Positions 8,207-24,667 of a stretch of 64,000 nucleotides of DNA are shown here, one piece after another. Source of the DNA: Clostridiales bacterium. Its GTDB lineage: Bacteria > Bacillota > Clostridia > Oscillospirales > Oscillospiraceae. The notes under the pieces are model-generated. The model saw nothing but the letters and a program-made list of their open reading frames with translations, did no database searches and was not told the origin of the DNA. The translations under genes were made by a program, and so were the position numbers. Position 1 is the stretch's first letter. Every line of letters starts with the position of its first letter. The stretch lies in the NCBI GenBank assembly GCA_012719235.1, contig JAAYAR010000068.1, forward strand, positions 1 through 64,000, in the 5' to 3' direction.

Positions 8207-8468
8207 AAGTGACAGAATCCAACCGGAGTCCGGGACAATATCCGTCAATACGCTGCAATACATCGATAATAATTGTTAATTACGACAATAAGATTCGCCA
8301 ATGTTTTTGAGCACGCTTATATATCCGGTTTCAAAGTACAAAATATAAAAAATAATTACTATATTTTCAGAGTATACAGAGATACCATACATTTATTAAG
8401 GGTACAAGTATGTTTAAATACAGAAAGTAAAGCACTCGTGCCCGAAGTTGATTGAAGGGAGCCTTGGA

Positions 8469-9461
8469 ATGAAGAGAGTATTGATCATAGGCGGAGGCTT
8501 AGCCGCCTGTACTGTCGCCAGGGACCTTACATATGCCGGTATTGAGGCTTGCATTGTAGAACGCAACAGCTCAATTGGCGGCAAGGTTCGTAATTATGGC
8601 TGTAAGGCGACAGGCGACTGCCTCAATTGCGGACTCTGCACTGCGGCCACATTGTGGGACTGCGTTGAAAAAAACGAAAAAATCCAAAAGATCTGCAATG
8701 CTACCGTTACCGACATTGTCAGGAAAGACGGTCTTTTTCTAGCTGATATTCTCAGCGGCGGGATCAGCGAAACTCATATGTTTTCCGATATCGTCCTGGC
8801 CTCCGGTTTTCGCGATATATACGGCAGCACGGTTTTTCAGCCGGGAGTTATCGGCGGCATAGCTATGGAAAGACTGCTCAAGGACAGGCGCGAGGGCGAA
8901 CTGTTCGACAGTGCGCCGTCAAGCGTTGCTCTGCTGCTGTGCAGCGGATCCAGAACAATTAAGGATCAGGCTCCGTGGTGCTCACGCTTCTGCTGCGGCT
9001 TTTCCGGCAGGACCGCACGCGTCATAAAGCACGTCTACCCCGAATGTAAGGTGGATCTGTACTATACGGACTACCAGGAGACACACCCCGAATATTGCAT
9101 GGAAAAGCTCAGAGAGCAGGGAATTAACCTTGTCAAATGCAGGGCCCGCTGCGAAGGATCGGAGGACGGCCGCCCTGTCGTGACCTGGGACGAGGCCGAC
9201 GGCTGCAAAAGCGCCGTATACGACAGAGTCGTGCTTATAAACGGTATCGTACCGGGCGAGAATAACCGCGCGTTTGCAGAACTTACCGATCTCAAGCAAA
9301 ACAGCGACGGCTTCCTCGAGTACGTCAAAGAGCCCGAGATCACCGGCGTATATCTTGCGGGAACCGTCAAAGGTCCTATGGGTGTAAACGAAACCTACCG
9401 CGACGCCGCTTACACAGCCGTAAGGATCATTGAAGCATATAAAAAGGAGGCCTCAAATTGA
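8469..9461 (+). CDS. HdrA-like FAD-dependent oxidoreductase
   Basis: Flavoprotein related to the FAD core of heterodisulfide reductase subunit A; likely an electron-transfer subunit of the methylene-THF reductase complex encoded downstream. The N-terminal dinucleotide fold RVLIIGGGLAACTVARDL is followed by the FAD-region IGGKVRNYG and a cysteine cluster with CLNCGLC near residue 55. A second cysteine group, CSRFCCG, lies near residue 178, as in HdrA. The C-terminus carries a second dinucleotide-type segment (GVYLAGTVKGPMGVNETY). At 330 aa it is shorter than full HdrA (about 650 aa), lacking the N-terminal domain and C-terminal ferredoxins, which the next gene appears to supply. ATG 8469 is preceded by AAGGGAG; the first gene of the cluster. 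Confidence 0.8.
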   Translation: MKRVLIIGGGLAACTVARDLTYAGIEACIVERNSSIGGKVRNYGCKATGDCLNCGLCTAATLWDCVEKNEKIQKICNATVTDIVRKDGLFLADILSGGISETHMFSDIVLASGFRDIYGSTVFQPGVIGGIAMERLLKDRREGELFDSAPSSVALLLCSGSRTIKDQAPWCSRFCCGFSGRTARVIKHVYPECKVDLYYTDYQETHPEYCMEKLREQGINLVKCRARCEGSEDGRPVVTWDEADGCKSAVYDRVVLINGIVPGENNRAFAELTDLKQNSDGFLEYVKEPEITGVYLAGTVKGPMGVNETYRDAAYTAVRIIEAYKKEASN

Positions 9462-10747
9462 AACTTGTGATCGTTGGAGAGGGGCCAAAGCTTCCTCTGG
9501 TCAAAGAGAAGCTCTCTGCGGCAGGGATCGACTATTTCAGCGCGGCCAACGCCCAGGAACTGAGGGAACTTGTCCCGACTCTGCCTGTTCTCGTTTATGT
9601 TCCTTGTGATCTGCCTAAGTTCGTACTTGAGCCGGACTATCAAAAGAGAGCTGTCAGCGCTCTTCATGCTAATGACGAGATAGTTTTTCTAATGGATGCG
9701 GCCAAAGAGAATACGCCGTACGAGTTTTCACTCGTATTTGACGCTGCCATCAGGGCGGCAAGGATGATGAGACCCGTGACCGTGCTGTCCCGTACGGTCC
9801 GCGGCAGTTTCCCGGGTGCCGAGCACAAATACACGCAGGCTCGGGATGCGGGCGTACGCTTTATCAGGTACGACGATATCGAGGTTGAGCGCTCCGTTGA
9901 AGGCGTCTACACAGTGAGCGTTACGGAGGGCACAGATACCCTGGTCATCGAAACACCGTGCCTGGTCGACTGTTCTCCGGGCAGCGGCCCGGAGTTGCTC
10001 GAGATCGCGAAAGAGCTCAGACTGAAAGTCTACAAGAAAAGGTACATAACAAACAGCCGCTGGTTTGACCACAACAAGAACACTTCCCGCAGAAATGTCT
10101 ACGTTCTGTTCGATTCGGATATAGGGGAAGACGGCGATGTCGGCACCCTGGTGACGAATCTTCTTTCGACACAGAACAGGGCGAACCGCCGCGTTGCTAT
10201 GGTAGACAAAACCAAATGCGCTTTTTGCTACACCTGCTACAGGATATGCCCCCACAGCGCCCCCGTGCCCGATCTGACTGCCCGCGCCATGCTGATACCC
10301 GAGGAACTCTGCGACAGCTGCGGCGCCTGTGTTGCGGCATGTCCGGCCAACGCCATAGCGTGGGATGAACCGCTCCCGAATTTGCCTGACATGAAGCCCG
10401 TACTGATGCTCTGCTGCGAAAACTCCGCTTACGTCGCGGCTTCCGCCGCTCTCGACGGGTTGAACGTTGAGATCTCCTCGATGCCTTGCGGAGGCGTAAT
10501 ATCCACTATGGAGATGGCCAAGGCCATGGGCAGCCACTCGGGGATCCTTGTCGCCGTGTGCATCAACGGTGCCTGTAAGCACTACGACGGAAATCTCCGC
10601 GCCATCGCCACCGTCGGGCGGATAAAGAAAGAGATCGCTGAGCTGGGGCTGGATTCCGGCAGGATCGAGGTCCTTCAGGTATCGGGTCCGATGGAGAACG
10701 TTATCCGCGATGCGGTCGAACGCTTTGAAGGGAGGATAAACGAATGA
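9458..10747 (+). CDS. Ferredoxin/MvhD-like fusion protein (HdrA C-terminal part)
   Basis: A 429-aa electron-transfer protein. Residues 1-240 form an HdrA-like region without a clear FAD fingerprint. Around residues 250-305 are two 4Fe-4S ferredoxin motifs (CAFCYTCYRICP and CDSCGACVAACP). Residues about 310-429 resemble the MvhD/FrhD hydrogenase delta fold, with LMLCCENSA, SMPCGGVIS and VCINGACKHYDGN. With the preceding 330-aa protein it looks like a split HdrA-MvhD unit. TTG 9458 has a perfect AAAGGAGG 7 nt upstream and overlaps the previous stop by 4 nt, and its own stop overlaps metV by 4 nt, so strict translational coupling is likely. Assignment of the first half is less sure. Confidence 0.72.
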   Translation: MKLVIVGEGPKLPLVKEKLSAAGIDYFSAANAQELRELVPTLPVLVYVPCDLPKFVLEPDYQKRAVSALHANDEIVFLMDAAKENTPYEFSLVFDAAIRAARMMRPVTVLSRTVRGSFPGAEHKYTQARDAGVRFIRYDDIEVERSVEGVYTVSVTEGTDTLVIETPCLVDCSPGSGPELLEIAKELRLKVYKKRYITNSRWFDHNKNTSRRNVYVLFDSDIGEDGDVGTLVTNLLSTQNRANRRVAMVDKTKCAFCYTCYRICPHSAPVPDLTARAMLIPEELCDSCGACVAACPANAIAWDEPLPNLPDMKPVLMLCCENSAYVAASAALDGLNVEISSMPCGGVISTMEMAKAMGSHSGILVAVCINGACKHYDGNLRAIATVGRIKKEIAELGLDSGRIEVLQVSGPMENVIRDAVERFEGRINE

Positions 10748-11406
10748 TTGTCGCTGAGCGAAAGCCGATACAGGAGATAGCGGACAGTGTCAGGAAATAC
10801 GAAAAACTGCTCATCGTCGGCTGCGGCACCTGTGTAACGGTGAGCCTGTCGGGCGGTGAGAACGAGGCGTTCACCGTAGCGAACCTGTTGTCTCTTGTGA
10901 GCGATGCCAAATTCGACGTAACGTACGTAGAGCGGCAGTGCGAACCTGAGTTTCTTGAGAAACTCGATGAAGCGGTCTCAAAAGCAGACGCCGTACTGTC
11001 ACTTGCCTGCGGAGTCGGCGTACAGTTCATGGCGGAGCGCTATCCGGACAAACCCGTGCTGCCCGCTCTGAATACAACCTTTATGGGTGTTAACCGCGAC
11101 GTCGGTTACCTCACGGAGATGTGCCAGGGCTGCGGAAACTGTATACTTGAGAAAACAGGCGGCGTCTGCCCCGTAGCCCGCTGCTCCAAGAGCCATTTCA
11201 ACGGGCCCTGCGGCGGCAGCCAGAACGGGAAATGCGAAATAAGCAATGAAACCGACTGCGCCTGGCAGCTGATCTATGAGCGCTTGAAACGGCTTGATCA
11301 ACTTGATCGCCTCTGCGAAATCATCCCTCCGCGCGACTGGAGAACCAGCCGGGACGGCGGGCCCAGAAAAGTGGACCGCAGAGACCTTCGACCGGAGGTG
11401 GAATAA
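10744..11406 (+). CDS. metV: MetV, zinc/iron-sulfur partner of methylene-THF reductase
   Basis: Homologue of MetV, the partner subunit of MetF in acetogens and of the C-terminal domain of some long MetF proteins. It has an N-terminal alpha/beta domain starting LLIVGCGTCVTVSLSGG and a C-terminal cysteine-rich domain with CQGCGNCILEKTGGVCPVA, then CSKSHFNGPCGG and KCE, consistent with a bound Fe-S cluster. The tail ERLKRLDQLDRL then IIPPRDW is characteristic of the family. In acetogen enzymes MetV links the flavin of MetF to the other redox subunits. ATG 10744 overlaps the upstream stop (ATGA), and the stop overlaps metF (TAATG). Confidence 0.9.
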   Translation: MIVAERKPIQEIADSVRKYEKLLIVGCGTCVTVSLSGGENEAFTVANLLSLVSDAKFDVTYVERQCEPEFLEKLDEAVSKADAVLSLACGVGVQFMAERYPDKPVLPALNTTFMGVNRDVGYLTEMCQGCGNCILEKTGGVCPVARCSKSHFNGPCGGSQNGKCEISNETDCAWQLIYERLKRLDQLDRLCEIIPPRDWRTSRDGGPRKVDRRDLRPEVE

Positions 11407-12320
11407 TGTCCGAAAAGAGCAGGCTTCAGAAACTTTTTGAAGCGGGAAAATTCGTTGTCACCACGGAGATAGGCCCTCCGATGAGCGCCGACGCCGAAAA
11501 CGTCCGCGTAAAGGCCAGAGAGATCTCCGGCAAAGTCGACGCAGCGAACGTTACCGATTGCCAGACATCCATCGTGCGTATGTCATCGATAGCCGCCGCG
11601 GTTATCGCCCAGAGCGAAGGTGTCGAAACAATAATGCAGATGACGTGCAGGGACAGGAACAGGATCGCAATACAGAGCGATATCCTGGGAGCCTACGCTC
11701 TGGGCCTTAAGAACATTCTTTGCCTCTCCGGCGATCACCAGAGCTTCGGCAACGATCCCCAATCCAAAAACGTCTATGATATCGATTCCATACAACTTAC
11801 TCAGGCTGTCGCCTCCATGGCTAACGAGGGCAAATTCATAAACGGTAAAAGCTGCAAAACGCCGGCAGAGTTTTTTGTCGGAGCAACTGTGAATCCTTTT
11901 GCCGACCCTGAAGACATTCAGATCCTGAGGCTGCAAAAGAAGATAAACGCCGGTGCGCGCTTTATTCAGACGCAGGCGGTCTATGATGTGGACCGGTTTG
12001 AAGCCTTTATGGAAAAGGTTCGCAGGAAGGGTCTGCACGAGAAAGCGTATATCCAGGCCGGGATACTCGTGAACAAATCACTGCGCTCCATCGAGATGAC
12101 GGCGCAGGTACCCGGGATGGCAATACCCGAGGAACTGATAGCCCGTATGCGCGATGCTGATGATAAGCAGGCCGAAGGGCTAAAAATAGCGCTCGAACTC
12201 ATCGCAAAACTGAAAACAATACCCGGAATAAGCGGCATACACATCATGGCTGTTGGTTGGGAATCCATAGTCCCCGAGCTTGTCGGGCAGGCCGGATTCC
12301 TGCCGAGACCCGAAATTTAG
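11406..12320 (+). CDS. metF: 5,10-methylenetetrahydrofolate reductase
   Basis: Flavoenzyme catalysing the interconversion of methylene-THF and 5-methyl-THF, the last step of the methyl branch of the Wood-Ljungdahl pathway. The TIM-barrel fold is indicated by VVTTEIGPPMSADAENV near the N-terminus, MQMTCRDRNRIAIQSDIL, NILCLSGDH near residue 105, and GARFIQTQAVYDVDRFEAFM near residue 182. Length (304 aa) matches the short bacterial form that works with MetV. It is embedded among Hdr-like and AsrAB-like genes, which suggests that electrons arrive through a complex rather than directly from free NADH. ATG 11406 overlaps the metV stop by 1 nt and follows GGAGGTGG. Confidence 0.94.
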   Translation: MSEKSRLQKLFEAGKFVVTTEIGPPMSADAENVRVKAREISGKVDAANVTDCQTSIVRMSSIAAAVIAQSEGVETIMQMTCRDRNRIAIQSDILGAYALGLKNILCLSGDHQSFGNDPQSKNVYDIDSIQLTQAVASMANEGKFINGKSCKTPAEFFVGATVNPFADPEDIQILRLQKKINAGARFIQTQAVYDVDRFEAFMEKVRRKGLHEKAYIQAGILVNKSLRSIEMTAQVPGMAIPEELIARMRDADDKQAEGLKIALELIAKLKTIPGISGIHIMAVGWESIVPELVGQAGFLPRPEI

Positions 12321-12336
12321 CATTGAGGTGGATAAG

Positions 12337-12720
12337 ATGATTAAGAAAGAAATCGCTAAGACACCGGATGGCGAAAATATCATGAATTGCTTCCTGTGCG
12401 GCACCTGTACGGCCGGATGCCCGGTCAGCAAGATCGATCCGGCATTCAGCCCCCGCACGATAATGCGTATGGCTCTTTACGGCATGGAGAAGGAACTGCT
12501 TTCCTCACCCGAGATCTGGAAATGCGTGCAGTGCCACGTCTGCGTAGCGCACTGCCCACAGAACGCACGCCCCGCGGACGTAATAAAAGCCGTCCGTCAG
12601 ATTTCCGTCGCACGCGGCTTCTTCCCTGAAAAGCTCCTGGAGGATGTCGAAAAACTGGACGAAGAGACACAGAAGCAGCGCCTTGAGAAAGTTGGCGCAC
12701 TACTTAATAAAGAGGTTTAA
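12337..12720 (+). CDS. hdrC: HdrC-like iron-sulfur protein
   Basis: Small two-cluster ferredoxin-like protein of the heterodisulfide reductase C family. The two 4Fe-4S motifs are CFLCGTCTAGCP and CVQCHVCVAHCPQ, and the family helix RPADVIKAVRQISVARG follows. Such subunits relay electrons between HdrA and HdrB or other partners. Here no HdrB (CCG-domain) gene is present, so its partner is unclear; MetV/MetF or MvhD are candidates. ATG 12337 is chosen because GAGGTG lies 6 nt upstream, giving 127 aa; the open frame extends upstream into metF, but that extension has no family similarity. It is followed after 3 nt by the giant HdrA fusion. Confidence 0.87.
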   Translation: MIKKEIAKTPDGENIMNCFLCGTCTAGCPVSKIDPAFSPRTIMRMALYGMEKELLSSPEIWKCVQCHVCVAHCPQNARPADVIKAVRQISVARGFFPEKLLEDVEKLDEETQKQRLEKVGALLNKEV

Positions 12721-12723
12721 GAT

Positions 12724-15700
12724 ATGGCCGACATGGTTAAAAAACCGGTGCTTGTCATCGGCGGCGGTATCGGTGGCATTCAGGCCTCGCATGACCTCGC
12801 CGAGATGGGTATCCCTGTTTTTCTGGTTGAAAAAACACCTTCAATCGGAGGCAGGATGGCGCAGCTTGACAAAACGTTTCCGACAAACGACTGTTCAGCC
12901 TGCATTCTTGCCCCGAAAGTTACAGACACATACAGCCATCCTTTGATCAACACGATGACTTTGAGCGAGGTCGTGAAGATAAAGGGTGAGGCTCCCAACT
13001 TTAAAGTTGTGATCCGCAGAAAAGCGCGATACATCAAACCCGAGAAGTGTAAAGGCTGCAGCGACTGCGTGCCGGTTTGCCCCATATCAGTCAAGAGCGA
13101 GTTCGATATGGAGGTCGGCAACAGAAAAGCGATATACAAACCGTTCGCGCAGGCAGTTCCCAACATTGTCTCTATCACGAAAAAAGGAACTTCTCCGTGC
13201 AAGTTCCGCTGCCCCGCGCACATGGACGCCCACGGCTATATAGCTCTTGCGGGCCAGGGCCGCTGGGAAGAAGCTCTCGAAGTTGTACGCCGCACCACAC
13301 CGTTTGCGGGTGTGCTCGGACGCATATGTTTCCACCCCTGCGAGGAAAACTGCTCCCGCAGACTCGTGGATGATCCTCTCAACATTCCGGGTATCAAGCG
13401 CTTTGCAGCCGACTACGCCGCTCAAAACAACATAGACCCGCCGGTCGAGATCGAGGGAACGCCCAAAGACACCAAGGTCGCCGTCATCGGAGCCGGTCCC
13501 GCAGGCGTAAACTGCGCATATTCACTCGCAAAACAGGGATATAAAGTCACAGTTTTCGAACGCAACCCCGAAGGCGGCGGAATGCTCAAATACGGCATAC
13601 CCGATTACCGTCTGAATAAAGACGTCGTAAAATATGAAGTCGGCGTCGCCGAAAAGATGGGCGTAGAGTTCCGGTACGGTGTCGAGATCGGTCCCGACCT
13701 GACCCTTGACGATCTGCGCGGAATGGGCTACAAAGCCGTATTTCTCGCGATCGGCGCTCAAAAAGACGTCCGCACGGGAATACCCGGCGAGGATGCCGAG
13801 GGCGTTATCGCCAGTATAAACTTCCTTCGCAGACTTAACATGGGTGAACGCCCGGCCCTCGGAAAGAAAGTTGTCGTTCTCGGCGGCGGAAACGTTGCCA
13901 TGGACGCCTGCAGAAGCGCGGTACGCCTCGGCTGCGACGTGACTGTCGTCTACCGCCGTACCGAAAACGAGATGCCGGCGAGCCCCGAAGAGTACCACGC
14001 CGCACTCGAAGAGGGCGTCAAATTCTCATTCCTGACCACACAAAAAGAAGTCGTCGTAAAAGACGGTAAAGTTGCGGGCCTCAAGTGCGAGCGCAACGAA
14101 CTGGGCGAGCCTGACGCATCCGGAAGAAGATCCCCCGTAAGGATTCCCGATTCGGACTTTGTCATCGAGTGCGACAACATTATAGTAGCAGTCGGACAGC
14201 GCGTCGACACGTCAATAAAAGACGCCGGTTTTGACGTCTTTGACGAGAACGGGCGCGTCGTAAGTACTGACTGCGCGACGTCTATTCCCGACGTCTTCCT
14301 CGGCGGCGACATCACCGGCCCTTCAATAGCTATCGAAGCGGTAGCCGCGGGCAACAAGGCTGCCAAAGCGATAATCAACTATCTTGAAGGGATAAACCTC
14401 TCGCTTGATATCTGTATGCTCCCCGAGACCCAGGCGGAGGATATCGACTTTTCACATGTAACCTCGACAAAGCGCACTTCGGGCCGCCTTATCAGTCTTG
14501 ACCGGCGCCTGAGCTCCTTTGACGAGGTCGATCTCGGATACGACGAGCAGACAGCCAGAGACGAAGCGCTCCGCTGCGTCGACTGCTCCGTGTGCAGCGA
14601 ATGCCGGGCCTGCGTAAAGGCCTGTGCCGCCGGCGCGATCTGCCATGACGACCATGACACCGAGATCGAGATCGACGTGAGCTCCATTATCATGTGTCCC
14701 GGCTATGACATGGCTGAGAATATCCCGCCGGAACTCGGATACGGCAAATACGAAGACGTTGTCTCGGGCCTTCAGTTCGAGCGCATCCTGTCAGCCTCGG
14801 GTCCCTGCACCGGACACGTCCAGCGCCCCAGCGACGGCATGCCGCCCGAGCGCATCGCTTTCATACAGTGCGTCAGCTCAAGAGACTGCAACTGCAGCGC
14901 CGACTACTGCTCAAGCGTGTGTTGTATGTACGCCGTCAAGGAAGCGCAGATCACAAAAGAGCATCTGCCGACCGTCAAGGATATCCACATATACTATATG
15001 GATATGCGCGCTTACGGCAAGGACTTTGACCGTTACGTCGAAAGCGCAAAGAACAAGTACGGCATCGAGTTCATCCGCAGCCGCGTAGGCAAAGTCATTC
15101 GCAACGATGACGGCACGTTCACGCTCTACAGCTGCGCACCGGACGGAACATTTATGACGCAGACATACGACATGGTCGTGCTGTCGACCGGCATGGTCGC
15201 AAACGCCGATACCGTGAAGCTCTGCAAGGAATCCGGTATCAAAACCGACAAGTACGGTTTCATATACTGCGATGATTTCCAGGCTCCTTCCACCTCGGTC
15301 GAGGGCATATACGCCTGCGGCGCCGCCAGCGGCCCGAAGGACATCCCCGAGACAGTGACCGAGGCCTCCGCTGCCGCCGCCTGCGCCGCAAAGACCGCCG
15401 CGCTTGCGGAAGTGGATTTCGACGATTATTCCGATTACTTCAAAAGAGAAGAGGCCGTTCCTCTTCGCGACATATCTAAAGAACCCATACGTATGGGCGT
15501 GTTTGTCTGCCACTGCGGCATCAATATCGGGGGTTACGTAGACGTTCCCGACGTATGCGAATACATAAAGACACTCCCGTTTGTCGCGCACGTCGAGAAC
15601 AACCTCTATACCTGTTCCGTCGACGCCCAGCAGCACATGATGGAGGTAATCAAGGAACACAATCTCAACCGTGTCGTTGTGGCCTCCTGTACTCCCAGAA

Positions 15701-17169
15701 CACACGAGCCCCTCTTCAGGGAAGTGTTGAGAAAGACCGGCCTCAACCCGTATCTGTTCAACATGGCCAACATTCGAGACCAATGTTCCTGGGTGCATAT
15801 GGACGACAAGCTCTCCGCGACGGAGAAAGCCAAGGAACTTATCCGCATGGCCATTGGAAAAGGCATCTACGCAAACGAGCTTACAACAAAGAGTATCCCG
15901 GTAGAGCACTCCGTGCTCGTGATAGGCGGCGGAATGGCCGGAGTAAGCGCCGCGCTCGCCGTTGCCGACATGGGCTACAAAGCCTATATCGTTGAAAAAA
16001 CGGAGCGGCTCGGCGGAAAAGCGTTTGACCTTGCCGACACGTTTACCGGGCGCCATATCGCCGGGCGCGTCCGCAGCGAATTCGAGCGCGCCGAGCAGAA
16101 CGGAAACATCGAAGTCTTCACGAATGCCGATGTGCTTAATATCGGCGGCTACGTTGGCAACTTCGAGACAGATATCTGCACGCCCGCCGGCGACAGGAAG
16201 ATCGTTCACGGCGCCATAATCGTCGCAAACGGAGCAAACGAGGGTACTCCCGACGGGTACCTCTACGGTTCCGACAAGAGAGTCATCACCCAGCTTGAGC
16301 TCGATAAGCTCCTGAATAAAAACGACAAAAGGCTGCGCGACATCAAGAGGGTCGTCATGATCCAGTGCGTCAACTCAAGAGAAGACTACAGGATGTACTG
16401 CAGCAAAGTGTGCTGCAACCAGGCTCTTCGCAATGCGGCGGCTCTGAAACGCATGCATCCCGATATCGACATCACGATCCTTTACAGAGAGATGCGCTCT
16501 TACGGCCTGAATGAGGATAACTACAAAGACGCCCGCAGGAGCGGCGTAACGTTCATTCACTTCCCGGACGACCGCAAGCCTCTCGTAGCGGGAGGGGACG
16601 ATCTTGTCGTCACCGTCACATCCGATGACGGCGCGGTGCGCATGATCCAGACGGACCTGCTCGTTCTGGCGGAGGCTATAGTTCCGGATGTCGCCGAGAA
16701 CCAGCGCCTTGCACAGCTCCTCAAGGTCCCCACAAATCAGGACGGTTTCTTCCTCGAGGCCCACGTAAAACTCCGCCCCGTCGACTTCGCGACCGAGGGT
16801 GTGTATCTGTGCGGCCTGGCCCACTCTCCGAAGAATCTTCGCGAATCTATCATCCAGGGCAAAGCCGCCGCCGGAAGGGCAGCTACCGTGATCTCGAAAG
16901 CTGCGCTCGAGACGGTCGGCACGATCGCAAAAGTTGACCAGTCGCTCTGCACGGCCTGCCGTACATGCGAAGAAGTGTGCCCATACGGCGCGATCACAGT
17001 GCAGGAGGTCACAATACGCGGCTGCTCGGCAATGAAAGCCGTAGTGAACGACGTTCTTTGCAAAGGCTGCGGCACCTGCTGCGCAAACTGCCGCTGCGGC
17101 GCGGTCGATCTCGGCGGGTTCACCGATCAGCAGATCGTGTCTGAGATCGAATATCTTTTAAGAAAGTAG
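12724..17169 (+). CDS. Giant HdrA-GltD-HdrA fusion flavoprotein (1481 aa)
   Basis: Multi-flavin iron-sulfur oxidoreductase, probably the core of an electron-bifurcating or electron-splitting complex. Order: residues 8-130 first HdrA FAD half (VLVIGGGIGGIQASHDLAE) with ferredoxin motif CKGCSDCVPVCP; about 158-555 an inserted GltD/NfnB-type module with CEENCSR cysteines, FAD fold VAVIGAGPAGVNCAYSLA near 250 and NAD(P)H fold VVVLGGGNVAMDA near 380; about 617 a cysteine cluster (CVDCSVCSECRACVKAC); about 650-890 the rest of the first HdrA; from about 925 a second, complete HdrA with GVFVCHCGINIGGYVDVP, FAD fold VLVIGGGMAGVSAALA near 1062, CSKVCCNQ near 1226, and two C-terminal 4Fe-4S motifs (CTACRTCEEVCP, CKGCGTCCANC). 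It has at least three FAD sites and one NAD(P)H site. ATG 12724 follows AGAGG. Confidence 0.86.
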   Translation: MADMVKKPVLVIGGGIGGIQASHDLAEMGIPVFLVEKTPSIGGRMAQLDKTFPTNDCSACILAPKVTDTYSHPLINTMTLSEVVKIKGEAPNFKVVIRRKARYIKPEKCKGCSDCVPVCPISVKSEFDMEVGNRKAIYKPFAQAVPNIVSITKKGTSPCKFRCPAHMDAHGYIALAGQGRWEEALEVVRRTTPFAGVLGRICFHPCEENCSRRLVDDPLNIPGIKRFAADYAAQNNIDPPVEIEGTPKDTKVAVIGAGPAGVNCAYSLAKQGYKVTVFERNPEGGGMLKYGIPDYRLNKDVVKYEVGVAEKMGVEFRYGVEIGPDLTLDDLRGMGYKAVFLAIGAQKDVRTGIPGEDAEGVIASINFLRRLNMGERPALGKKVVVLGGGNVAMDACRSAVRLGCDVTVVYRRTENEMPASPEEYHAALEEGVKFSFLTTQKEVVVKDGKVAGLKCERNELGEPDASGRRSPVRIPDSDFVIECDNIIVAVGQRVDTSIKDAGFDVFDENGRVVSTDCATSIPDVFLGGDITGPSIAIEAVAAGNKAAKAIINYLEGINLSLDICMLPETQAEDIDFSHVTSTKRTSGRLISLDRRLSSFDEVDLGYDEQTARDEALRCVDCSVCSECRACVKACAAGAICHDDHDTEIEIDVSSIIMCPGYDMAENIPPELGYGKYEDVVSGLQFERILSASGPCTGHVQRPSDGMPPERIAFIQCVSSRDCNCSADYCSSVCCMYAVKEAQITKEHLPTVKDIHIYYMDMRAYGKDFDRYVESAKNKYGIEFIRSRVGKVIRNDDGTFTLYSCAPDGTFMTQTYDMVVLSTGMVANADTVKLCKESGIKTDKYGFIYCDDFQAPSTSVEGIYACGAASGPKDIPETVTEASAAAACAAKTAALAEVDFDDYSDYFKREEAVPLRDISKEPIRMGVFVCHCGINIGGYVDVPDVCEYIKTLPFVAHVENNLYTCSVDAQQHMMEVIKEHNLNRVVVASCTPRTHEPLFREVLRKTGLNPYLFNMANIRDQCSWVHMDDKLSATEKAKELIRMAIGKGIYANELTTKSIPVEHSVLVIGGGMAGVSAALAVADMGYKAYIVEKTERLGGKAFDLADTFTGRHIAGRVRSEFERAEQNGNIEVFTNADVLNIGGYVGNFETDICTPAGDRKIVHGAIIVANGANEGTPDGYLYGSDKRVITQLELDKLLNKNDKRLRDIKRVVMIQCVNSREDYRMYCSKVCCNQALRNAAALKRMHPDIDITILYREMRSYGLNEDNYKDARRSGVTFIHFPDDRKPLVAGGDDLVVTVTSDDGAVRMIQTDLLVLAEAIVPDVAENQRLAQLLKVPTNQDGFFLEAHVKLRPVDFATEGVYLCGLAHSPKNLRESIIQGKAAAGRAATVISKAALETVGTIAKVDQSLCTACRTCEEVCPYGAITVQEVTIRGCSAMKAVVNDVLCKGCGTCCANCRCGAVDLGGFTDQQIVSEIEYLLRK

Positions 17170-17178
17170 GTGAGTGGG

Positions 17179-17610
17179 ATGAGCGAGAATGTAAACACTG
17201 AGTGGACACCGCGCATCGTAACTTTCCTTTGTAACTGGTGCAGCTACGCAGGGGCGGATCTCGCCGGTACGAGCCGACTTCAGTATCCGCCCAGCATCCG
17301 GGTTATCCGTGTGCCGTGCTCCGGCAGGATCAACCCGCAGTATATTATCAAGGCGATCGCCGACGGCGCCGACGGAGTACTTGTATCTGGCTGCCATCCC
17401 GGAGACTGCCACTACCTCGCCGGAAATATGTACGCCCGCAGGCGGTTCGCGGTCCTGAAAAGACTGCTCACCCTTGCAGGCATCAACTCCGATCGCGTGC
17501 ATTTCACCTGGGTTTCCGCTTCGGAAGCAGAGTCTTTCGTGCGCGCGGTAAAAGAAGTCACCGAGAAGGTCCGGGCGCTCGGCCCCAACGATCTGGGAGG
17601 GATGGAATAA
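17179..17610 (+). CDS. mvhD: MvhD-type hydrogenase/Hdr iron-sulfur subunit
   Basis: Delta-subunit family protein that bridges HdrA to a hydrogenase, formate dehydrogenase or NAD(P)H module. The family signature is clear: FLCNWCSYAGADLAGTSR near the N-terminus, RVPCSGRINPQYIIKA in the middle, and SGCHPGDCHYLAGN, whose cysteines bind a 2Fe-2S cluster in the family. Length (143 aa) is standard. ATG 17179 has AGGTGA 5 nt upstream; GTG 17170 in frame is possible. No hydrogenase large or small subunit is in the window. The next gene starts inside its stop codon. It probably passes electrons between the AsrAB-like module downstream and the HdrA fusion upstream. Confidence 0.92.
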   Translation: MSENVNTEWTPRIVTFLCNWCSYAGADLAGTSRLQYPPSIRVIRVPCSGRINPQYIIKAIADGADGVLVSGCHPGDCHYLAGNMYARRRFAVLKRLLTLAGINSDRVHFTWVSASEAESFVRAVKEVTEKVRALGPNDLGGME

Positions 17611-18479
17611 TGGACTATACGGCTCAGACAAACGCGCTTCGGGCCGCTGCCGACAAACTACTGAGCGAGGGAACGGTCGATTGCGTGATCGGCCTTACTC
17701 CCAACGAGGCAGTCGGCTTCCCAACGCCCATAGTGATCCGAAACCCGGAGGACGCCGGCAAGCTTGTATGGGACGAAAACTGCTTTACAAACATTGCCGT
17801 GTATCTGCTGCGTACGACAGGCCGCCGCGCCATTGCCGCCAAAGCCTGCGACGTGCGCTCGATCATAAACCTTCTTGCGGAAAATCAACTTAAGCGCGAT
17901 GAGATCTATATCATCGGCATGCAGTGCCCCGGAATGATAAAGGACGGGGAACCGGCTCCCGGCTGCGACCAGTGCCCCTCATCCGTACCGGGGATATCGG
18001 ATCTCACTATCGGTTCTGACGGCTCAGACACATATCAGGATGAAAAAATGGAGCCCCACGGCGAGAATGTCACCGAATGGATGGAGAACTCCACCGACGC
18101 GGAGAAGAAAGAGCGCTTCCTCAAAGAGATAGACAAATGCATCTTATGCTTTACGTGCCGGCAAGCCTGCCCCGCGTGCTACTGCACGGCCTGCTTCATC
18201 GACAGGAAGGCAGACCCCTGGCGGCAGATCGACGCTGACCGCGCCACAAAGATCGCGTTCCATCTGACCCGCGCAATGCACCTGGCCGGCCGCTGCACTG
18301 ATTGCTGCGCATGCGAGAAGGTCTGTGCGTCAGGAGTAAATCTGCGATATCTCTACCGCGGTATAATCGAATTCGTAAGTGATACCTATGGCTTCACCAC
18401 CGGCGTAGATCCCGATGCCCGCCCTGTAATGAACAGTTTCACGTCTGAAGACAGTGAGACAGGATTCCTTGGGAGGTGA
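17610..18479 (+). CDS. 4Fe-4S dicluster protein, AsrA/FrhB-like
   Basis: Iron-sulfur electron-transfer protein of 289 aa. The N-terminal part contains a KACDVRSIINLLAENQ segment like those of AsrA, HydB and FrhB/FdhB-type proteins. The C-terminal part has cysteine clusters CILCFTCRQACPACYCTACF near residue 175 and CTDCCACEKVC near residue 230, fitting two 4Fe-4S clusters. It shows a similar overall plan to the next gene, so the two may be an old duplication or paired subunits. ATG 17610 overlaps the mvhD stop by 1 nt and follows GGGAGG. It could be the link between MvhD and the NAD(P)H-oxidising subunits. A specific biochemical name is not justified. Confidence 0.74.
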   Translation: MDYTAQTNALRAAADKLLSEGTVDCVIGLTPNEAVGFPTPIVIRNPEDAGKLVWDENCFTNIAVYLLRTTGRRAIAAKACDVRSIINLLAENQLKRDEIYIIGMQCPGMIKDGEPAPGCDQCPSSVPGISDLTIGSDGSDTYQDEKMEPHGENVTEWMENSTDAEKKERFLKEIDKCILCFTCRQACPACYCTACFIDRKADPWRQIDADRATKIAFHLTRAMHLAGRCTDCCACEKVCASGVNLRYLYRGIIEFVSDTYGFTTGVDPDARPVMNSFTSEDSETGFLGR

Positions 18480-18483
18480 CGCG

Positions 18484-19458
18484 ATGAAAAGAATAAAAAC
18501 GACAAAAGAGGCATTCAATAAAGACCTTGCAGCCCTTTTGGATAAATTCGATGTTTTTGCCCCTTCGACAAAACAGGGAAAGCTGGATTACCTTAACATT
18601 ACCGATCCTGAGGATATAACCTGGACTGACGATCTTCCGTACAAGTCGCCAAAGGAGACCGTTTTTCCTCGCGTAGAAGAGATCATGCGCTTTACAAAGG
18701 ACGACGTCGTCCCCACCGCAAACGTAAAACCCGTCCTGCTGCTTGGCGCCAAGCCCTGCGATATCGAATCGTTCGATGTGTTTGACGGCGTGTTCACCTC
18801 TGAAAAAGGCCTGTATATCGACCCGTTTTACAAGGAGCGGCGCGATAAGATGCTGATCATCGGTTCAGGCTGCGCCGCCAAAAAGCCCGGGTGTTTCTGT
18901 GATGAGCGCGGTTATGACATGACGTTTTCCGACAAGTGCGACGCTTTCGTTGCGCTCGACGGCGACGACATGTACATAGATCTCATAACTGACCGCGCTG
19001 AAGGCCTGTTTTCCGGCTCCGACTGCCCGCCGCGCGAGGTAAATAAAGCTCCAGAGACTACCTTGAAGATCGACGCTCATGAAAATGATATCTTCACTAC
19101 CATGCCGTGGGAAGACTGGGCGATGAGCTGCATCGGCTGCGGGACCTGCACCTACGTATGTCCCACCTGCCACTGTTTCGACATTCGCGACGCGGACGAT
19201 AAAGGAGAAGTCACGCGCTGCCGTTTGTGGGACAGCTGTATGTATTCGAATTTTACGCTCCACGCCGGCGGCACGAACCCCCGCACGACACAGGCTGCCA
19301 GATACCGCCAGCGGGTAATGCACAAGTATGTGTACCTGAGGGACAATATCGGGATAACCGCTTGCACGGGCTGCGGCCGCTGCATCCGCTTGTGCCCCGG
19401 AGGGATCAATATTCACGACACAGTTAAAGACATTATGGGGAGGACGGGAAAGAAATGA
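18484..19458 (+). CDS. AsrA/HydB-like 4Fe-4S subunit
   Basis: Homologue of the beta subunit of sulfhydrogenase (HydB) and of anaerobic sulfite reductase subunit A. The N-terminal domain has the characteristic LLLGAKPCDIESFDVFD near residue 80 and the GSGCAAKKPGCFC cysteine group. The C-terminal ferredoxin region has CIGCGTCTYVCPTCHCFD near residue 210 and CTGCGRCIRLCPGGIN near residue 300. It should accept electrons from the FAD subunit encoded next and pass them on through iron-sulfur clusters. No NiFe-hydrogenase or siroheme sulfite reductase genes accompany it, so the pair is being used as a redox input module. ATG 18484 has GGGAGGTGA just upstream; the stop overlaps the next start by 4 nt. 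Confidence 0.85.
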   Translation: MKRIKTTKEAFNKDLAALLDKFDVFAPSTKQGKLDYLNITDPEDITWTDDLPYKSPKETVFPRVEEIMRFTKDDVVPTANVKPVLLLGAKPCDIESFDVFDGVFTSEKGLYIDPFYKERRDKMLIIGSGCAAKKPGCFCDERGYDMTFSDKCDAFVALDGDDMYIDLITDRAEGLFSGSDCPPREVNKAPETTLKIDAHENDIFTTMPWEDWAMSCIGCGTCTYVCPTCHCFDIRDADDKGEVTRCRLWDSCMYSNFTLHAGGTNPRTTQAARYRQRVMHKYVYLRDNIGITACTGCGRCIRLCPGGINIHDTVKDIMGRTGKK

Positions 19459-20288
19459 GTATGAATCCCTATCTGCCGATCCCGGCCCGTATCGAAGAGA
19501 TCATTCAGGAGACAACATCGGACTCCCAGGACGTCAAAACATACAGGCTCAAACCCAAGACCGTCATTGATTTCATGCCCGGACAGTTTGTCGAGTGTTC
19601 GGTCCCGGGGGTAGGCGAGTCCACGTTCGGCTTCGCTTCAAACCCGCTCGTAAAAGACGGCATCGAGCTGACCATCAAGAGGACCGGCCGCGTTACGCAG
19701 GCGATACATATGCTCAGCGCCGGCGACACTCTCTGGATCAGAGGCCCGTTCGGCAACGGTTTCCCGGTTGATTTCTTTGAAGGACACGACCTGTTCTTCG
19801 TTGTGGGCGGGCTCGGCCTGGCCCCGCTTCGCCCGCTGATCGAGTATGTTCTTGACAAGAACAACAGGGACAAATACGGGAAGATAAACATGATGATCGC
19901 CGCACGCACGCCGAAAGACTTTATTTTCACTTACGACTACGATCGGTGGGCCTCCTGCCGGGACGTGCACATCTACCAGACGATCGACGCCGCCGTACCC
20001 GGTTGGGACAAGTTCGTCGGCTTTCCGAATAACCTGATCAAGGACATCGAGTTTGACGGTCAGAACACAATCGGTCTGATCTGCGGTCCTCCGATCATGA
20101 TAAAACTGAATGCTGCCGCGTTCAAATCGCTGGGTATCGCCACAGATCGCATTTATACGACGCTTGAGATGAGGATGACCTGCGGCCTCGGCAAGTGCGG
20201 AAAGTGTAATATCGGGCATCGCTACGTGTGTCTCGACGGTCCCGTCTTCAGCATGAAGGAACTTGACGAGATGCCCGGAGAGTATTAA
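19455..20288 (+). CDS. AsrB/HydG-like FAD/NAD(P)H-binding subunit
   Basis: Ferredoxin-NADP reductase-type subunit of the family that includes sulfhydrogenase gamma (HydG), AsrB and PyrK. The flavin-binding barrel shows MPGQFVECSVPGVGE near residue 40, and the NAD(P)-binding half has VVGGLGLAPLRPLIEYVL near residue 116 and LICGPPIMIK near residue 212. The C-terminal 2Fe-2S motif is CGLGKCGKCNIG then YVC. It probably oxidises (or reduces) NAD(P)H and hands electrons to the AsrA/HydB-like partner immediately upstream. ATG 19455 overlaps that gene's stop (ATGA). PyrK is excluded as the better name because no pyrD is adjacent and the partner is HydB-like. Confidence 0.87.
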   Translation: MSMNPYLPIPARIEEIIQETTSDSQDVKTYRLKPKTVIDFMPGQFVECSVPGVGESTFGFASNPLVKDGIELTIKRTGRVTQAIHMLSAGDTLWIRGPFGNGFPVDFFEGHDLFFVVGGLGLAPLRPLIEYVLDKNNRDKYGKINMMIAARTPKDFIFTYDYDRWASCRDVHIYQTIDAAVPGWDKFVGFPNNLIKDIEFDGQNTIGLICGPPIMIKLNAAAFKSLGIATDRIYTTLEMRMTCGLGKCGKCNIGHRYVCLDGPVFSMKELDEMPGEY

Positions 20289-20305: not shown

Positions 20306-21394
20306 ATGGAAAGAATACCGTTTGACAGGGATACCGAACTGAAGGTAACAGGCGAATACGCCGTCGCCGGTTTCAACAGCAGACCCGGCACCCCCATCCC
20401 GAAGATAAATACGCCCATGACGCCCAAAGAGCACTATCTGCGTTTGATGCGCGGAGAGAAACCTCTTTGGCTGCCGACCGGCTACGATTTTGTCAACATT
20501 TCGCCCAGCTGTATTCCGGATAACGTTGCGCGCGCATTTATCATGGAACTGACACCTTTCCCCATCGAGAAGGTCGGCGGGCCCGATTTCTTCGGAGTCG
20601 AATGGGAGTACGTACCGAAAGCCGGCGGCTCAATGGTGCGTGCCGGTAAGCCCAAGGTGCCGGACATCTGCAGCTGGGAGGAGTATATCACTTTCCCGGA
20701 CCTCAAAAAGATCGACTGGGCGCAAAGCGCAAAGCAGAACTCGGCTCTTATCGACGGAGAGCGCGTCGTATGCATGACGATCCTCAACGGTCTTTTCGAG
20801 CGTTTGATATCGTTCATGGATTTTTCCGAAGCGGCTGTCGCACTCATCGACGATGAGCAAAAAGACGCGGTCCACAGGCTGTTCTCGCGGCTCTGTGACT
20901 TCTACGAAGAGGAGATCGCGATTTTCAAGAAGTATTACAACATCGACCAGTTTTGCCTCCACGACGACTGGGGCAGCCAGCGGGCACCGTTCTTCTCTCC
21001 GGATACAGTGCGAGAGATGCTTTTGCCCTACGTGAAACGGCTTGTCGACTTCACCCACAGTCAGGGCCTGATCTTCGAACTCCACTCCTGCGGAAAAAAC
21101 GAGATCCTCACGCCCGTAATGATCGAGGCCGGGGTCGACGTATGGAAGCCGCAGCCGATGAACGACATCAAGTATCTTTGTAAAGAATACGGCGACAAGA
21201 TCCGTATAGGCATCTCGCCTGACGGCCTTGACCCTTACAACATGCCCACCGAACCCGCGCAATTCATTGCGATTGCCGAAGCGTACGTCGAAAAATGCAG
21301 AGGATATGTCGGCGTCGGCTGCTCGAGCTATATCGGCAGGGAATTCTTCGAAACCGTATATACACTCACCCGCGAGGAATACTGCAATCTGTAG
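20306..21394 (+). CDS. UroD-family (MtaA-type) zinc methyltransferase
   Basis: A 362-aa protein of the uroporphyrinogen decarboxylase superfamily. It carries the H-x-C...C zinc signature of methylcobamide:CoM-type methyltransferases: His260-Ser-Cys262 (in LHSCGKNE) and Cys339 (in GVGCSSYIG), so it is more likely a corrinoid-dependent methyltransferase than a heme enzyme. No other heme genes are nearby. It follows the redox cluster after 17 nt with AAAGGAATTAGGA before ATG 20306, and precedes an AcsE-like methyl-THF methyltransferase. A role in moving methyl groups between a corrinoid protein and a thiol or folate acceptor is an inference; no corrinoid protein or activase is in the window. Confidence 0.75.
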   Translation: MERIPFDRDTELKVTGEYAVAGFNSRPGTPIPKINTPMTPKEHYLRLMRGEKPLWLPTGYDFVNISPSCIPDNVARAFIMELTPFPIEKVGGPDFFGVEWEYVPKAGGSMVRAGKPKVPDICSWEEYITFPDLKKIDWAQSAKQNSALIDGERVVCMTILNGLFERLISFMDFSEAAVALIDDEQKDAVHRLFSRLCDFYEEEIAIFKKYYNIDQFCLHDDWGSQRAPFFSPDTVREMLLPYVKRLVDFTHSQGLIFELHSCGKNEILTPVMIEAGVDVWKPQPMNDIKYLCKEYGDKIRIGISPDGLDPYNMPTEPAQFIAIAEAYVEKCRGYVGVGCSSYIGREFFETVYTLTREEYCNL

Positions 21395-21490
21395 CGCTTA
21401 AAGCAAGATTCCGGACTAAGGACCGCAACTTCCAGAATGCCTGATTGTACAAGCAGACACGAAAATAACCAAAAGAAAAGGAGTATCATT

Positions 21491-22297
21491 ATGATCATTA
21501 TCGGCGAAAAAATTAACGGATCGATCCCTTCTGTCGGAAAGGCGATCGCGGAACGCGACGAGGCTTTTATTAAAGATCTGGCGATCCGCCAGTCGGAAGC
21601 CAACGCCAATTACATCGACGTGTGCGCCTCAGTTGAAGGTGCCCAGGAGATGGAGACTATGGAGTGGCTTATCGGTCTTGTTCAGAGCGTCACCGACACC
21701 CCGATCTGCATCGACAGCCCCAATTCACAGGTCTGCGTTGACTGCATTAAGTTCTGCAATAAACCCGGCCTTATTAACTCGGTATCCATGGAAGGGAAGA
21801 AGGTAGACATCGTCTTCCCGGTCATCGCCGACACCGATTGGGGTGTAATAGCCCTTCTGTGCGACGACTCCGGAATCCCCAGCAACGTTGCAAAGCGCCT
21901 CCAGGTTGCCGACCGCATTATGGCCCTGGCAAAAGAATACGGAATCGCGAATAACCGCGTCTACATCGACCCCCTGGTCACAGCCCTCTCCACGAACGAG
22001 GAGAGCCTGAGCCTCTTCGTAGAATGCACCAAAGAGCTGCTTGAAAAGTACCCCGGCCTTCACATCACGAGCGGCCTTTCAAACATATCGTTCGGGCTGC
22101 CCGCAAGAAAACTCATCAACATTGCGTTTATGACGCTCGCTATGAACGCCGGTATGGATTCCGCGATTGTAGACCCCACTAACCGTGATATGCTCGGCAA
22201 CATCTACGCCACCGAAGCCCTTTTGCAGATAGATGAGTTCTGCCTCGAGTATATAAACGCCTTCAGAGACGGACTTATCGGACCCGTCAAGAAGTAG
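21491..22297 (+). CDS. Methyltetrahydrofolate:corrinoid methyltransferase (AcsE/MetH-type)
   Basis: DHPS-like TIM-barrel methyltransferase that transfers the methyl of 5-methyl-THF to a cob(I)amide protein, or the reverse. The beginning MIIIGEKINGSIPSVGKAI, the DSPN segment (CIDSPNSQV), YIDPLVTALS and TSGLSNISFGLPARKLIN match the pterin-binding motifs of AcsE, including the asparagine in GLSN. Length (268 aa) is close to Moorella AcsE. ATG 21491 with AAAGGAG 7 nt upstream is preferred over a TTG at 21437. The corrinoid iron-sulfur protein and acetyl-CoA synthase genes are not in the window, so it may serve AcsCD elsewhere or a methylotrophic corrinoid protein. Confidence 0.87.
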   Translation: MIIIGEKINGSIPSVGKAIAERDEAFIKDLAIRQSEANANYIDVCASVEGAQEMETMEWLIGLVQSVTDTPICIDSPNSQVCVDCIKFCNKPGLINSVSMEGKKVDIVFPVIADTDWGVIALLCDDSGIPSNVAKRLQVADRIMALAKEYGIANNRVYIDPLVTALSTNEESLSLFVECTKELLEKYPGLHITSGLSNISFGLPARKLINIAFMTLAMNAGMDSAIVDPTNRDMLGNIYATEALLQIDEFCLEYINAFRDGLIGPVKK

Positions 22298-22344
22298 TTA
22301 CAGATATCACCGCTTATTCTGGTTAAAGAAAGGATTATCAGAGA

Positions 22345-24021
22345 ATGGGATACAAGTCGGATATTGAAATTGCCCAGGAGACTAAACTTCAGCACATTTC
22401 CGAGGTTGCCAGGACAGCCGGCATCGATGAGAAATATCTCGAGTATTACGGAAACAATAAAGCGAAAGTCAGCCTTGATCTCATGAAGGATATGCAGGAT
22501 AAGCCGAACGGAAAGCTCATCCTTGTAACGGCCATCACCCCGACACCGGCCGGAGAAGGCAAGACGACAACGACCGTCGGCCTCGGCGACGCCCTTCGCC
22601 ACATCGGCAAAAAGTCCATGATAGCGCTCCGCGAGCCTTCTCTCGGCCCCGTTTTCGGCGTAAAAGGCGGAGCCGCCGGCGGCGGTTATGCCCAGGTCGT
22701 GCCGATGGAGGACATAAACCTGCATTTCACGGGGGACCTTCACGCTATCGGCGCCGCGAACAACCTTCTTGCGGCAATGCTTGACAACCATATCTATCAG
22801 GGCAATAAGCTCAACATCGACCCGCGCAGGATCACGTGGCACAGAGCCGTCGACATGAACGACAGGCAGCTGCGCTTCATGGTGAACGGTATAAACGGCA
22901 GGACAAACGGCGTTCCCCGCGAGGATAGTTTTGATATAACGGTCGCCTCCGAGATCATGGCCGTTCTCTGCCTCTCCTCCGGCATTACCGACCTCAAAGA
23001 GCGTATTGCCCGCATAGTCGTCGGCTATACGTATGATGAAAAGCCTGTCACCGCCGGTGATCTGAAAGCACAGGGCGCTCTTACGGCTCTGCTTAAAGAC
23101 GCTCTTAAGCCGAACCTGGTTCAGACCCTCGAGCACACTCCTGCTTTCGTGCACGGCGGACCTTTCGCGAACATCGCACACGGATGCAACTCCGTTCTCG
23201 CCACGAAATGCGCTCTGAAACTCTCCGATTACCTCGTAACGGAAGCCGGATTCGGAGCGGACCTCGGCGCGGAGAAATTCTTCGATATCAAATGCCGCAT
23301 AGCGGGCCTCAAACCGGACGCAACAGTTATCGTCGCTTCCGTTCGTGCGCTCAAGCACCACGGCGGCGTCGCAAAAGCGAATCTGGGTACCGAAAATCTC
23401 GAGGCTCTCGAAAAGGGTCTTCCGAACCTTCTTCAGCATATTTCGAATGTCACGACCGTTTTCAAAGTTCCCGCAGTCGTCGCAATAAACCGCTTCCCGA
23501 CGGATACAGAAGCGGAACTCAAGCTTATTGAGGATAAATGTAAGGAGCTCGGCGTAAACGTCGCGCTTTCCGAAGTCTGGGGAAAAGGCGGAGCCGGCGG
23601 AGTTGAACTGGCCAAAGAGGTAGTAAGGCTTTGCGAACAACCGAACGATTTCTCCTTTGCGTATGACGTCAACACCAGCATTATGGAAAAACTGGAAGCC
23701 ATCAGCAAGAAGATTTATCACGCCGACTCGGTAGAGCTCGTCGGCACCGCTCCGAAGCAGCTTCAGCAGCTTGAGGATTACGGTTTCGGCAATCTCCCGA
23801 TCTGCATGGCCAAGACGCAGTACAGCTTCTCCGACAATGCTGCCCTGCTCGGAACACCGAAGAATTTCAAGATCACTGTCCGCAATCTGAAAGTCTCCGC
23901 CGGTGCCGGCTTTATAGTCGCACTCACCGGTGAAGTCATGACAATGCCCGGTCTGCCGAAAGTTCCTGCCGCCGAATCCATTGACGTGGACGAGAACGGC
24001 AAGATATCCGGCCTGTTTTAA
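22345..24021 (+). CDS. fhs: Formate--tetrahydrofolate ligase
   Basis: ATP-dependent activation of formate to 10-formyl-THF, the entry point of formate into the methyl branch. The P-loop-like [19 protein letters not shown] lies near residue 65, followed by [20 protein letters not shown] and [20 protein letters not shown], all hallmark segments. Length (558 aa) is normal. ATG 22345 follows AAAGGATTATCAGAGA. fchA starts 5 nt after the stop and folD follows, giving the standard C1 order fhs-fchA-folD. Confidence 0.97.
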
Positions 24022-24026
24022 TCACT

Positions 24027-24665
24027 ATGAGTTTTCGGGAAAAAAGGATCGAGGAGTTCTTGGACGCGCTTGCGTCCAAGGCTCCTGTCCCCGGCGGCGG
24101 AGGAGCTTCGGCACTCCTGAGCGCCATCGGCGCCGCTCTGGGGCAAATGGTGTGCAATCTGACTGTCGGCAAGAAAAAATACGCGGCTGTCGAGCCCGAT
24201 ATTCTTGCACTGCGCGAAAAGCTCGAAGTTATGATGCACGAGTTTGAGCAAATGATGGATGAGGACGCAGTAGCTTTCGAGCCGCTCTCAAAAGCCTACG
24301 GTCTGCCCAGGGACACGCAGGAACAGATCGAAGAGCGCGCAAAGATAATGGAAGCTGCGCTGAAGACCGCCTGCAGTGTACCGCTCAAAATTATGGAGAG
24401 GACTTCCGAAGCACTTGATCTGCTCGCGGAGCTGGCCGAAAAGGGGAGCGCTCTCGCTATAAGTGACGTCGGTGTCGCTGCCGTGGCGGCCAAAGCTGCT
24501 CTTCAGGGAGCAAGTTTGAACGTGTATATCAACACCGATCTCATGGCTGACAAAGCTGCCGCAGCAGCCTATGAGTCTGCCGCGGACTCAATGATGGCGA
24601 AGTATAACAAAGTTGCCGATGATATCTTTACGCTCGTGATTAATCGGGTCAGAAAGGTTGATTAG
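24027..24665 (+). CDS. fchA: Methenyltetrahydrofolate cyclohydrolase (FchA family)
   Basis: Member of the formiminotransferase-cyclodeaminase C-terminal family; in acetogens and clostridia FchA converts 10-formyl-THF to methenyl-THF. The glycine-rich VPGGGGASALLSAIGAALG near residue 20 and VGKKKYAAVE near residue 49 are characteristic, and the rest is helical. Length (212 aa) is typical. It sits between fhs and folD. Because the adjacent FolD lacks the usual cyclohydrolase lysine, this protein probably supplies that step alone. Confidence 0.92.
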   Translation: MSFREKRIEEFLDALASKAPVPGGGGASALLSAIGAALGQMVCNLTVGKKKYAAVEPDILALREKLEVMMHEFEQMMDEDAVAFEPLSKAYGLPRDTQEQIEERAKIMEAALKTACSVPLKIMERTSEALDLLAELAEKGSALAISDVGVAAVAAKAALQGASLNVYINTDLMADKAAAAAYESAADSMMAKYNKVADDIFTLVINRVRKVD

Positions 24666-24667
24666 AG

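Follow-up and report, generated by a model that had tools for sequence, protein, structure and literature searches.

The current work deals with a gene at positions 12724 to 17169 of the window, that is, of the whole 64,000-nucleotide stretch analysed (positions 1 to 64,000 of contig JAAYAR010000068.1, assembly GCA_012719235.1, from a Clostridiales bacterium). The gene encodes an HdrA-GltD-HdrA fusion of 1481 residues, and the evidence leans modestly towards a role of this chain as the flavin hub that distributes electrons in an Hdr-type (type IV-like) methylene-tetrahydrofolate (methylene-THF) reductase belonging to a Wood-Ljungdahl operon. Such a hub would join an NADH input (the Flx module), an NADP(H) site (the GltD module) and methylene-THF. 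The flavin adenine dinucleotide (FAD) of the first HdrA half, in which the residue pair E686/K739 is intact, would be the branching flavin. One branch would run through HdrC to MetV/MetF, where methylene-THF is reduced; the other would pass through the inserted ferredoxin clusters and the GltD FAD to NADP(H), which would take the place of free ferredoxin. This arrangement would link NADH, NADP(H) and methylene-THF in one complex, with NADPH as either co-donor or product.

The gene starts with ATG and forms a single uninterrupted open reading frame (ORF). HdrA, GltD-type Fe-S and NAD(P)/FAD domains were recognised in its product by Pfam and NCBIfam, Pfam placing Fer4_20 at residues 156-236, Pyr_redox_2 at 251-543, and two more FAD Rossmann folds. 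The HdrA of Methanothermococcus, whose structure has been solved (5odc), aligns to the fusion in four pieces: HdrA residues 144-290 correspond to fusion residues 7-153, 287-505 to 618-834, 3-154 to 921-1072, and 505-651 to 1330-1480. The first two pieces flank a module similar to NfnL, NfnB and StnC; therefore, the GltD insertion lies within the inserted ferredoxin domain of the first HdrA half, between the CxxCxxCxxxC motifs at 109-119 and 624-634. The first-pass annotation, made from the letters of the stretch, had placed the insertion after the ferredoxin motif of the first HdrA.

All features of the window described here are on the forward strand. The first part of HdrA half 1 (12736-13182, residues 5-153), placed by the 5odc alignment and by conservation, holds the FAD Rossmann motif GGGIGG, the Cys197 motif TNDCSAC (C57, C60) and the first half of the inserted ferredoxin domain (C109-C119). 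The GltD/NfnB-like insertion follows (13186-14403, residues 155-560), with an Fe-S part (C159, C163, C202, C206, C210), an FAD motif GAGPAG at 256-261 and an NAD(P) Rossmann motif GGGNVA at 387-392. The second part of half 1 (14569-15393, residues 616-890) contains the ferredoxin motif C624-C634, the residues E686 and K739, equivalent to E356 and K409, and the TrxR cluster (C716/C729/C733/C734). HdrA half 2 (15484-17163, residues 921-1480) consists of an N-terminal Fe-S domain (C929, C931, C964, C989, C1021), an FAD fold with GGGMAG, D1194 and R1236 in the places of E356 and K409, and two C-terminal ferredoxin clusters (C1409-C1419, C1446-C1456). At least three flavins and several Fe-S clusters had been expected in the chain, and three flavin sites and several Fe-S clusters were found. 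The lysine of SYGLNEDNY was also considered as the equivalent of K409 and was ruled out, as the 5odc alignment puts K409 at K739 and R1236.

A confident AlphaFold model covering residues 1-1170 (predicted local distance difference test 88.3, predicted template modelling score 0.81) was searched by Foldseek. Against HdrA chain 8rwn_A the template modelling (TM) score was 0.94 by target length over 897 columns, the GltD part appearing as an insertion. The TM score was 0.62 against 5odc_A and 0.80, with a root-mean-square deviation of 2.2 Å, against NfnL 5jca_L.

The same full-length chain is encoded in three other genomes of the window's family (L009, L029 and L010, with full-length identities of 67%, 65% and 59%), and about 75 further loci with the fusion are spread across many phyla. 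The source genome is a 199-contig draft, and the fusion could be suspected of being an artefact, produced by a frameshift or a chimeric contig or by accidental joining in the recent past. This is extremely improbable, given these copies, the lack of an internal stop codon and the conservation of the cofactor residues; an assembly error or frameshift, which the first-pass annotation had named as a possible refutation, is ruled out by the conserved full-length copies. Nor has any FAD- or NAD(P)H-binding residue been lost in the window's GltD, the other weakness it had foreseen.

The scan for relatives returned 80 loci, nearly all of them end-to-end matches to the fusion and most of them a single ORF; their titles name Clostridia, Desulfotomaculum relatives, Syntrophaceae, Chloroflexi, Acidobacteria, Latescibacteria, WOR-3 and Thermoplasmatota. 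Conservation was scored in an alignment of 79 chains (78 relatives and the window's own), 1322-1657 aa long and with both halves, in which the FAD motifs and the Fe-S ligand cysteines are kept in 74-79 chains, nearly all exceptions being gaps. The fusion is rare in the window's family (4 of 250 sampled genomes, the window's included), and 391 genomes of its class yielded the window and two further full-length chains, together with two shorter chains. It is commoner in the phylum of Desulfoscipio, with matches at E <= 1e-250 in 42 of 299 genomes, most of them full-length. Also in the window's class, L118 and L119 (G308 and G336) are 1013-aa relatives that align only from residue 623, apparently double HdrA proteins without GltD.

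The second HdrA had been taken in the first-pass annotation for a full one. Half 1 has the Cys197 motif (C57/C60), the inserted ferredoxin domain and E686/K739, and is without an N-terminal Fe-S domain and a C-terminal ferredoxin domain; half 2 has these two domains and is without the Cys197 motif and the inserted ferredoxin domain. Neither is complete, and the second HdrA is better seen, from its domains, as the complementary half of a pseudo-dimer. Jointly, the halves give a single copy each of the N-terminal Fe-S domain, the Cys197 site, the inserted ferredoxin domain and the C-terminal ferredoxin domain, which suggests that one chain can do the work of an HdrA dimer. Such complementarity has already been reported for HdrA fusions of anaerobic methanotrophic (ANME) archaea and for Moorella (PMC9012536). 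The E356/K409 pair in at least one flavin domain is taken to mark a bifurcating HdrA (PMC9430772), and the fusion carries it in half 1 (E conserved in 79 of 79 chains, K in 75) with a replacement by D1194/R1236 in half 2. Because K409 is replaced by R1236, the flavin of half 2 probably does not bifurcate. The window and its nearest relatives are in a minority in having lost the lysine: at this position, 62 of the 79 aligned chains have K and 7 have R.

The arrangement beside MetFV had been called noteworthy, but it is not new and the chain is widespread. A 2022 paper reports that the HdrA of Moorella thermoacetica (1487 aa, 162.8 kDa) consists of two TrxR/HdrA parts, the first interrupted by a GltD domain, and holds eight [4Fe-4S] clusters, three FAD and a single NAD(P)H site (PMC9430772); this published domain order beside MetVF rules out a novel architecture. 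Two relatives, L149 and L151, are chains of exactly 1487 aa with E696, K750, E1204 and K1246 and match the fusion over its full length; because of this published fingerprint, they presumably belong to Moorella or close kin. Their clusters (L158/L159) have the order acsE, hdrC, hdrB, hdrA, mvhD, metV, metF. The Moorella HdrA (MetFV-HdrABC-MvhD, a type IV methylene-THF reductase) and the fusion have in common the domain order, the C-terminal ferredoxin domain, and MvhD and MetVF in the cluster. The Moorella-fingerprint systems have HdrB, lack AsrA/AsrB, show the NADH-type residues ACLE and keep E/K in both halves, whereas the window has no HdrB, an AsrA/AsrB module, a QmoA/B-like pair, the NADPH-type residues VYRR and R in place of K409 in half 2.

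The Moorella-type HdrA-GltD-HdrA architecture is present in the fusion, but the E/K signature of both flavin domains is confined to half 1. The genes that characterise a type IV methylene-THF reductase stand together (metV at 10744, metF at 11406, hdrC at 12328, hdrA at 12724, mvhD at 17170), but HdrB is absent from the cluster. Because of this absence, the window system is, on its gene content, a type IV-like variant and no strict member of the type. Its own predicted NAD(P)H dehydrogenase module, the lack of HdrB and the putative NADPH-type site set the fusion apart as a distinct variant. No CCG protein is present in the cluster, and a genome-wide family search for HdrB gave no CCG match outside ORFs of 560 and 777 aa; this and the other genome-wide statements come from family searches of the draft genome, which is 94% complete. 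No published account of MetVF clustered with a Flx module in the absence of HdrB was found in a literature largely without subscription journals, and such a cluster may be described already.

In Rossmann folds, YRR is associated with NADP and an acidic residue with NAD. The nucleotide motif of the window's GltD module (13882-13959, residues 387-412) reads GGGNVAMD ... VVYRR, with a beta strand at 405-410 in the model, and YRR is common to NfnL 5jca, NfnB 4ylf and StnC 8oh5. All features of an NfnB/GltD NADPH module are present: the GxGxxG FAD fold, the GGGNxAxD NAD(P) fold and YRR past the second strand. Identity to NfnB/StnC is about 40%, and 38-41% to the Nfn chains in the structural alignment. 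Past the second strand, 56 of the 79 chains have YRR, the window among them, 22 have xLE and 1 has neither; three of the 56 (L095, L107, L109) hold two nucleotide domains according to a later alignment. At least nine changes of the YRR/xLE motif are required on the combined tree. The rule applied to archaeal type III HdrA, GxGxxA as against GxGxxG, was tried and does not discriminate, as A392 is present in 79 of 79 chains and the Moorella-fingerprint chains also read GGGNVA. NADPH was bound in the GltD domain of StnC in a cryo-EM structure (PMC10482914).

The earlier claim of an NAD(P)H site in the fusion besides the AsrB-like subunit, with MetVF as partner, holds. The suggestion that both NADH and NADPH could be used has gained support, the GltD site having YRR as in NfnB/StnC and AsrB being a separate putative FAD/NAD(P)H module. 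In another reading, AsrA/AsrB would be only an alternative or redundant entry, as the Moorella HdrA, with the same domain order and MetVF partnership, itself oxidises NADH (PMC9430772). This appears unlikely, given that L149 and L151 have the acidic NADH-type ACLE at the GltD site as against VYRR in the window, and that an NAD(P)H dehydrogenase module, but no HdrB, is encoded in the window operon.

Two kinds of relatives depart from the common GltD site. L117 (G341:C29:7202-11551) has a degenerate GltD, with GGEYGAVD for GGGNVAMD and loss of the FAD GD motif, in an operon of the window's type (the cluster in L157). In the Thermoplasmatota relatives L095:1691-6652, L107:7833-12794 and L109:257-5230 (1653-1657 aa), the GltD insertion contains two tandem nucleotide domains after a single GltD FAD fold, YRR standing in the first (NADP type, near residue 422) and CVES in the second (NAD type, near residue 587).

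The motif was also compared with the Flx module, scored as present when a FlxC/AsrA gene directly follows the fusion, with or without MvhD. L117 (Flx present, degenerate site) and L095, L107 and L109 (two nucleotide domains; L095 with Flx directly downstream) were left out because their motif could not be scored. Among the 83 rows with both traits, YRR occurs with Flx in 24 and without it in 31, and xLE with Flx in 0 and without it in 28, so that all 24 scorable rows with a directly following Flx module have YRR. Fisher's test gave p = 6e-6 (p = 0.001 in an earlier run on fewer rows); independent-pairs tests on the tree had too few informative pairs for a decision in either run.

The energetics were calculated from assumed in vivo potentials (NADH -280, NADPH -370, methylene-THF -200, ferredoxin -500 mV), which serve only to rank the options. 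Formation of methyl-THF and ferredoxin from 2 NADH would be unfavourable (+27 kJ/mol), formation of methyl-THF and NADPH from 2 NADH near zero (+1.9 kJ/mol), and formation of methyl-THF and ferredoxin from 2 NADPH favourable (-7.7 kJ/mol). Transfer from NADPH to methylene-THF would be strongly exergonic, about -33 kJ/mol, and fits a simpler scheme in which GltD is a plain NADPH relay, the clusters passing electrons to HdrC and MetVF without bifurcation in an NADPH- (or NADH-) dependent methylene-THF reductase. The absence of K409 from half 2 and the GltD of StnC, a plain non-bifurcating NADPH relay (PMC10482914), are in line with that scheme. We regard it as doubtful, however, since the bifurcation signature E686/K739 of half 1 is intact in the window and widely conserved, and a plain relay could do without a Flx module and a pair of HdrA flavins.

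Several points weigh against the proposed hub. The relay function of the StnC GltD FAD is one of them; another is that the NADPH specificity of the window's GltD site is predicted from its motif. The Flx/YRR association is confounded by phylogeny and is kept as a pattern only, and two of the four chains omitted from the count (L117, L095) have Flx directly downstream. Moreover, L117 keeps its operon intact despite the degenerated GltD site, which indicates that GltD is not essential everywhere.

The hub proposal may be extended, tentatively and with clear reserve, to a three-carrier enzyme, in which a single bifurcating HdrA flavin would link NADH (Flx) and NADP(H) (GltD) to the reduction of methylene-THF, with NADP(H) as the partner carrier in this lineage and with several switches of the GltD site between NADP and NAD among the relatives. 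The identity of the carrier that accompanies NADH in Hdr-type methylene-THF reductases matters for the energetics of acetogens. The window variant suggests NADP(H) as a candidate and makes this answer directly testable, because its operon combines a GltD site of putative NADPH type with a distinct NAD(P)H dehydrogenase module. The YRR/xLE switch may serve as a simple sequence marker for sorting the family by predicted cofactor.

Other known systems share parts of this organisation. HdrA9-11 (type III) of ANME and other methane-metabolizing archaea contain, like the fusion, an NfnB insertion of about 500 aa in the ferredoxin domain (PMC9012536, PMC12054007). The features split in archaea between HdrA3/HdrA4 (type II) and HdrA9-11 are joined in one chain in the window; in HdrA3/4, however, the order is the reverse of that in the fusion, the N-terminal domain belonging to the first half and the Cys197 site to the second. 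The NfnB/StnC GltD modules resemble the window's in FAD, NADPH-type site and fold, but the latter is inserted into an HdrA ferredoxin domain. In FlxABCD-HdrABC, as in the window, an MvhD-like protein and Fe-S and FAD/NAD(P)H subunits adjoin HdrA and HdrC, whereas the window system is without HdrB, is linked to MetVF and has a GltD-containing double HdrA. The Flx names in the window are based on gene order and AsrA/AsrB similarity, the 289-aa protein having weak domain matches only. Dred_1327, a large HdrA of Desulfotomaculum reducens with multiple partial HdrA domains and putative NADH-binding domains in a Flx-like Hdr locus, is likened to the fusion by its description only, and its locus, unlike the window's, was assigned to DsrC and sulfate reduction (PMC4759654).

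The operon is tightly packed, with adjacent genes abutting or overlapping by a few bases; MvhD/FlxD (17170-17610, PF02662 FlpD) has a GTG start immediately after the stop codon of the fusion. Upstream lie a QmoA-like, short HdrA-like protein in a conserved position (8448-9461, HdrA2 model 344-557) and a QmoB-like protein (9458-10747) with an HdrA C-terminal part, ferredoxin and MvhD (FlpD) domain. Close relatives of the window also have this pair (8448-10747) ahead of metV. MetV (10744-11406, PF12225, methylene-THF reductase C-terminal), MetF (11406-12320, PF02219) and an HdrC-like ferredoxin subunit (12328-12720, TIGR03290; start inferred in an ORF from 12280) follow. Downstream of MvhD are the 289-aa Fe-S protein in the FlxC position (17610-18479), a conserved neighbour whose matches to Fer4_2 and FrhB_FdhB_N (FrhB/FdhB N-terminal) are both below the cut-off, an AsrA/sulfhydrogenase-beta-like Fe-S subunit in the FlxB position (18484-19458, TIGR02910) and an AsrB/sulfhydrogenase-gamma-like FAD-NAD(P)H subunit in the FlxA position (19455-20288, PRK08345, TIGR02911). 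The block of ten genes, in the order QmoA-like, QmoB-like, MetV, MetF, HdrC, fusion, MvhD, FlxC, AsrA, AsrB, is whole in L153, L155, L156 and L157, and is found in L031-L035 and L099 to the extent that contigs and ORF calls allow.

The rest of the methyl branch (20306-25531) comprises a URO-D-like protein (20306), methyl-THF:CoFeSP methyltransferase (21437), formate-THF ligase (22345), FchA (24027) and FolD (24668). CODH, ACS and an Rnf subunit are present in the genome, which is thus consistent with an acetogen.

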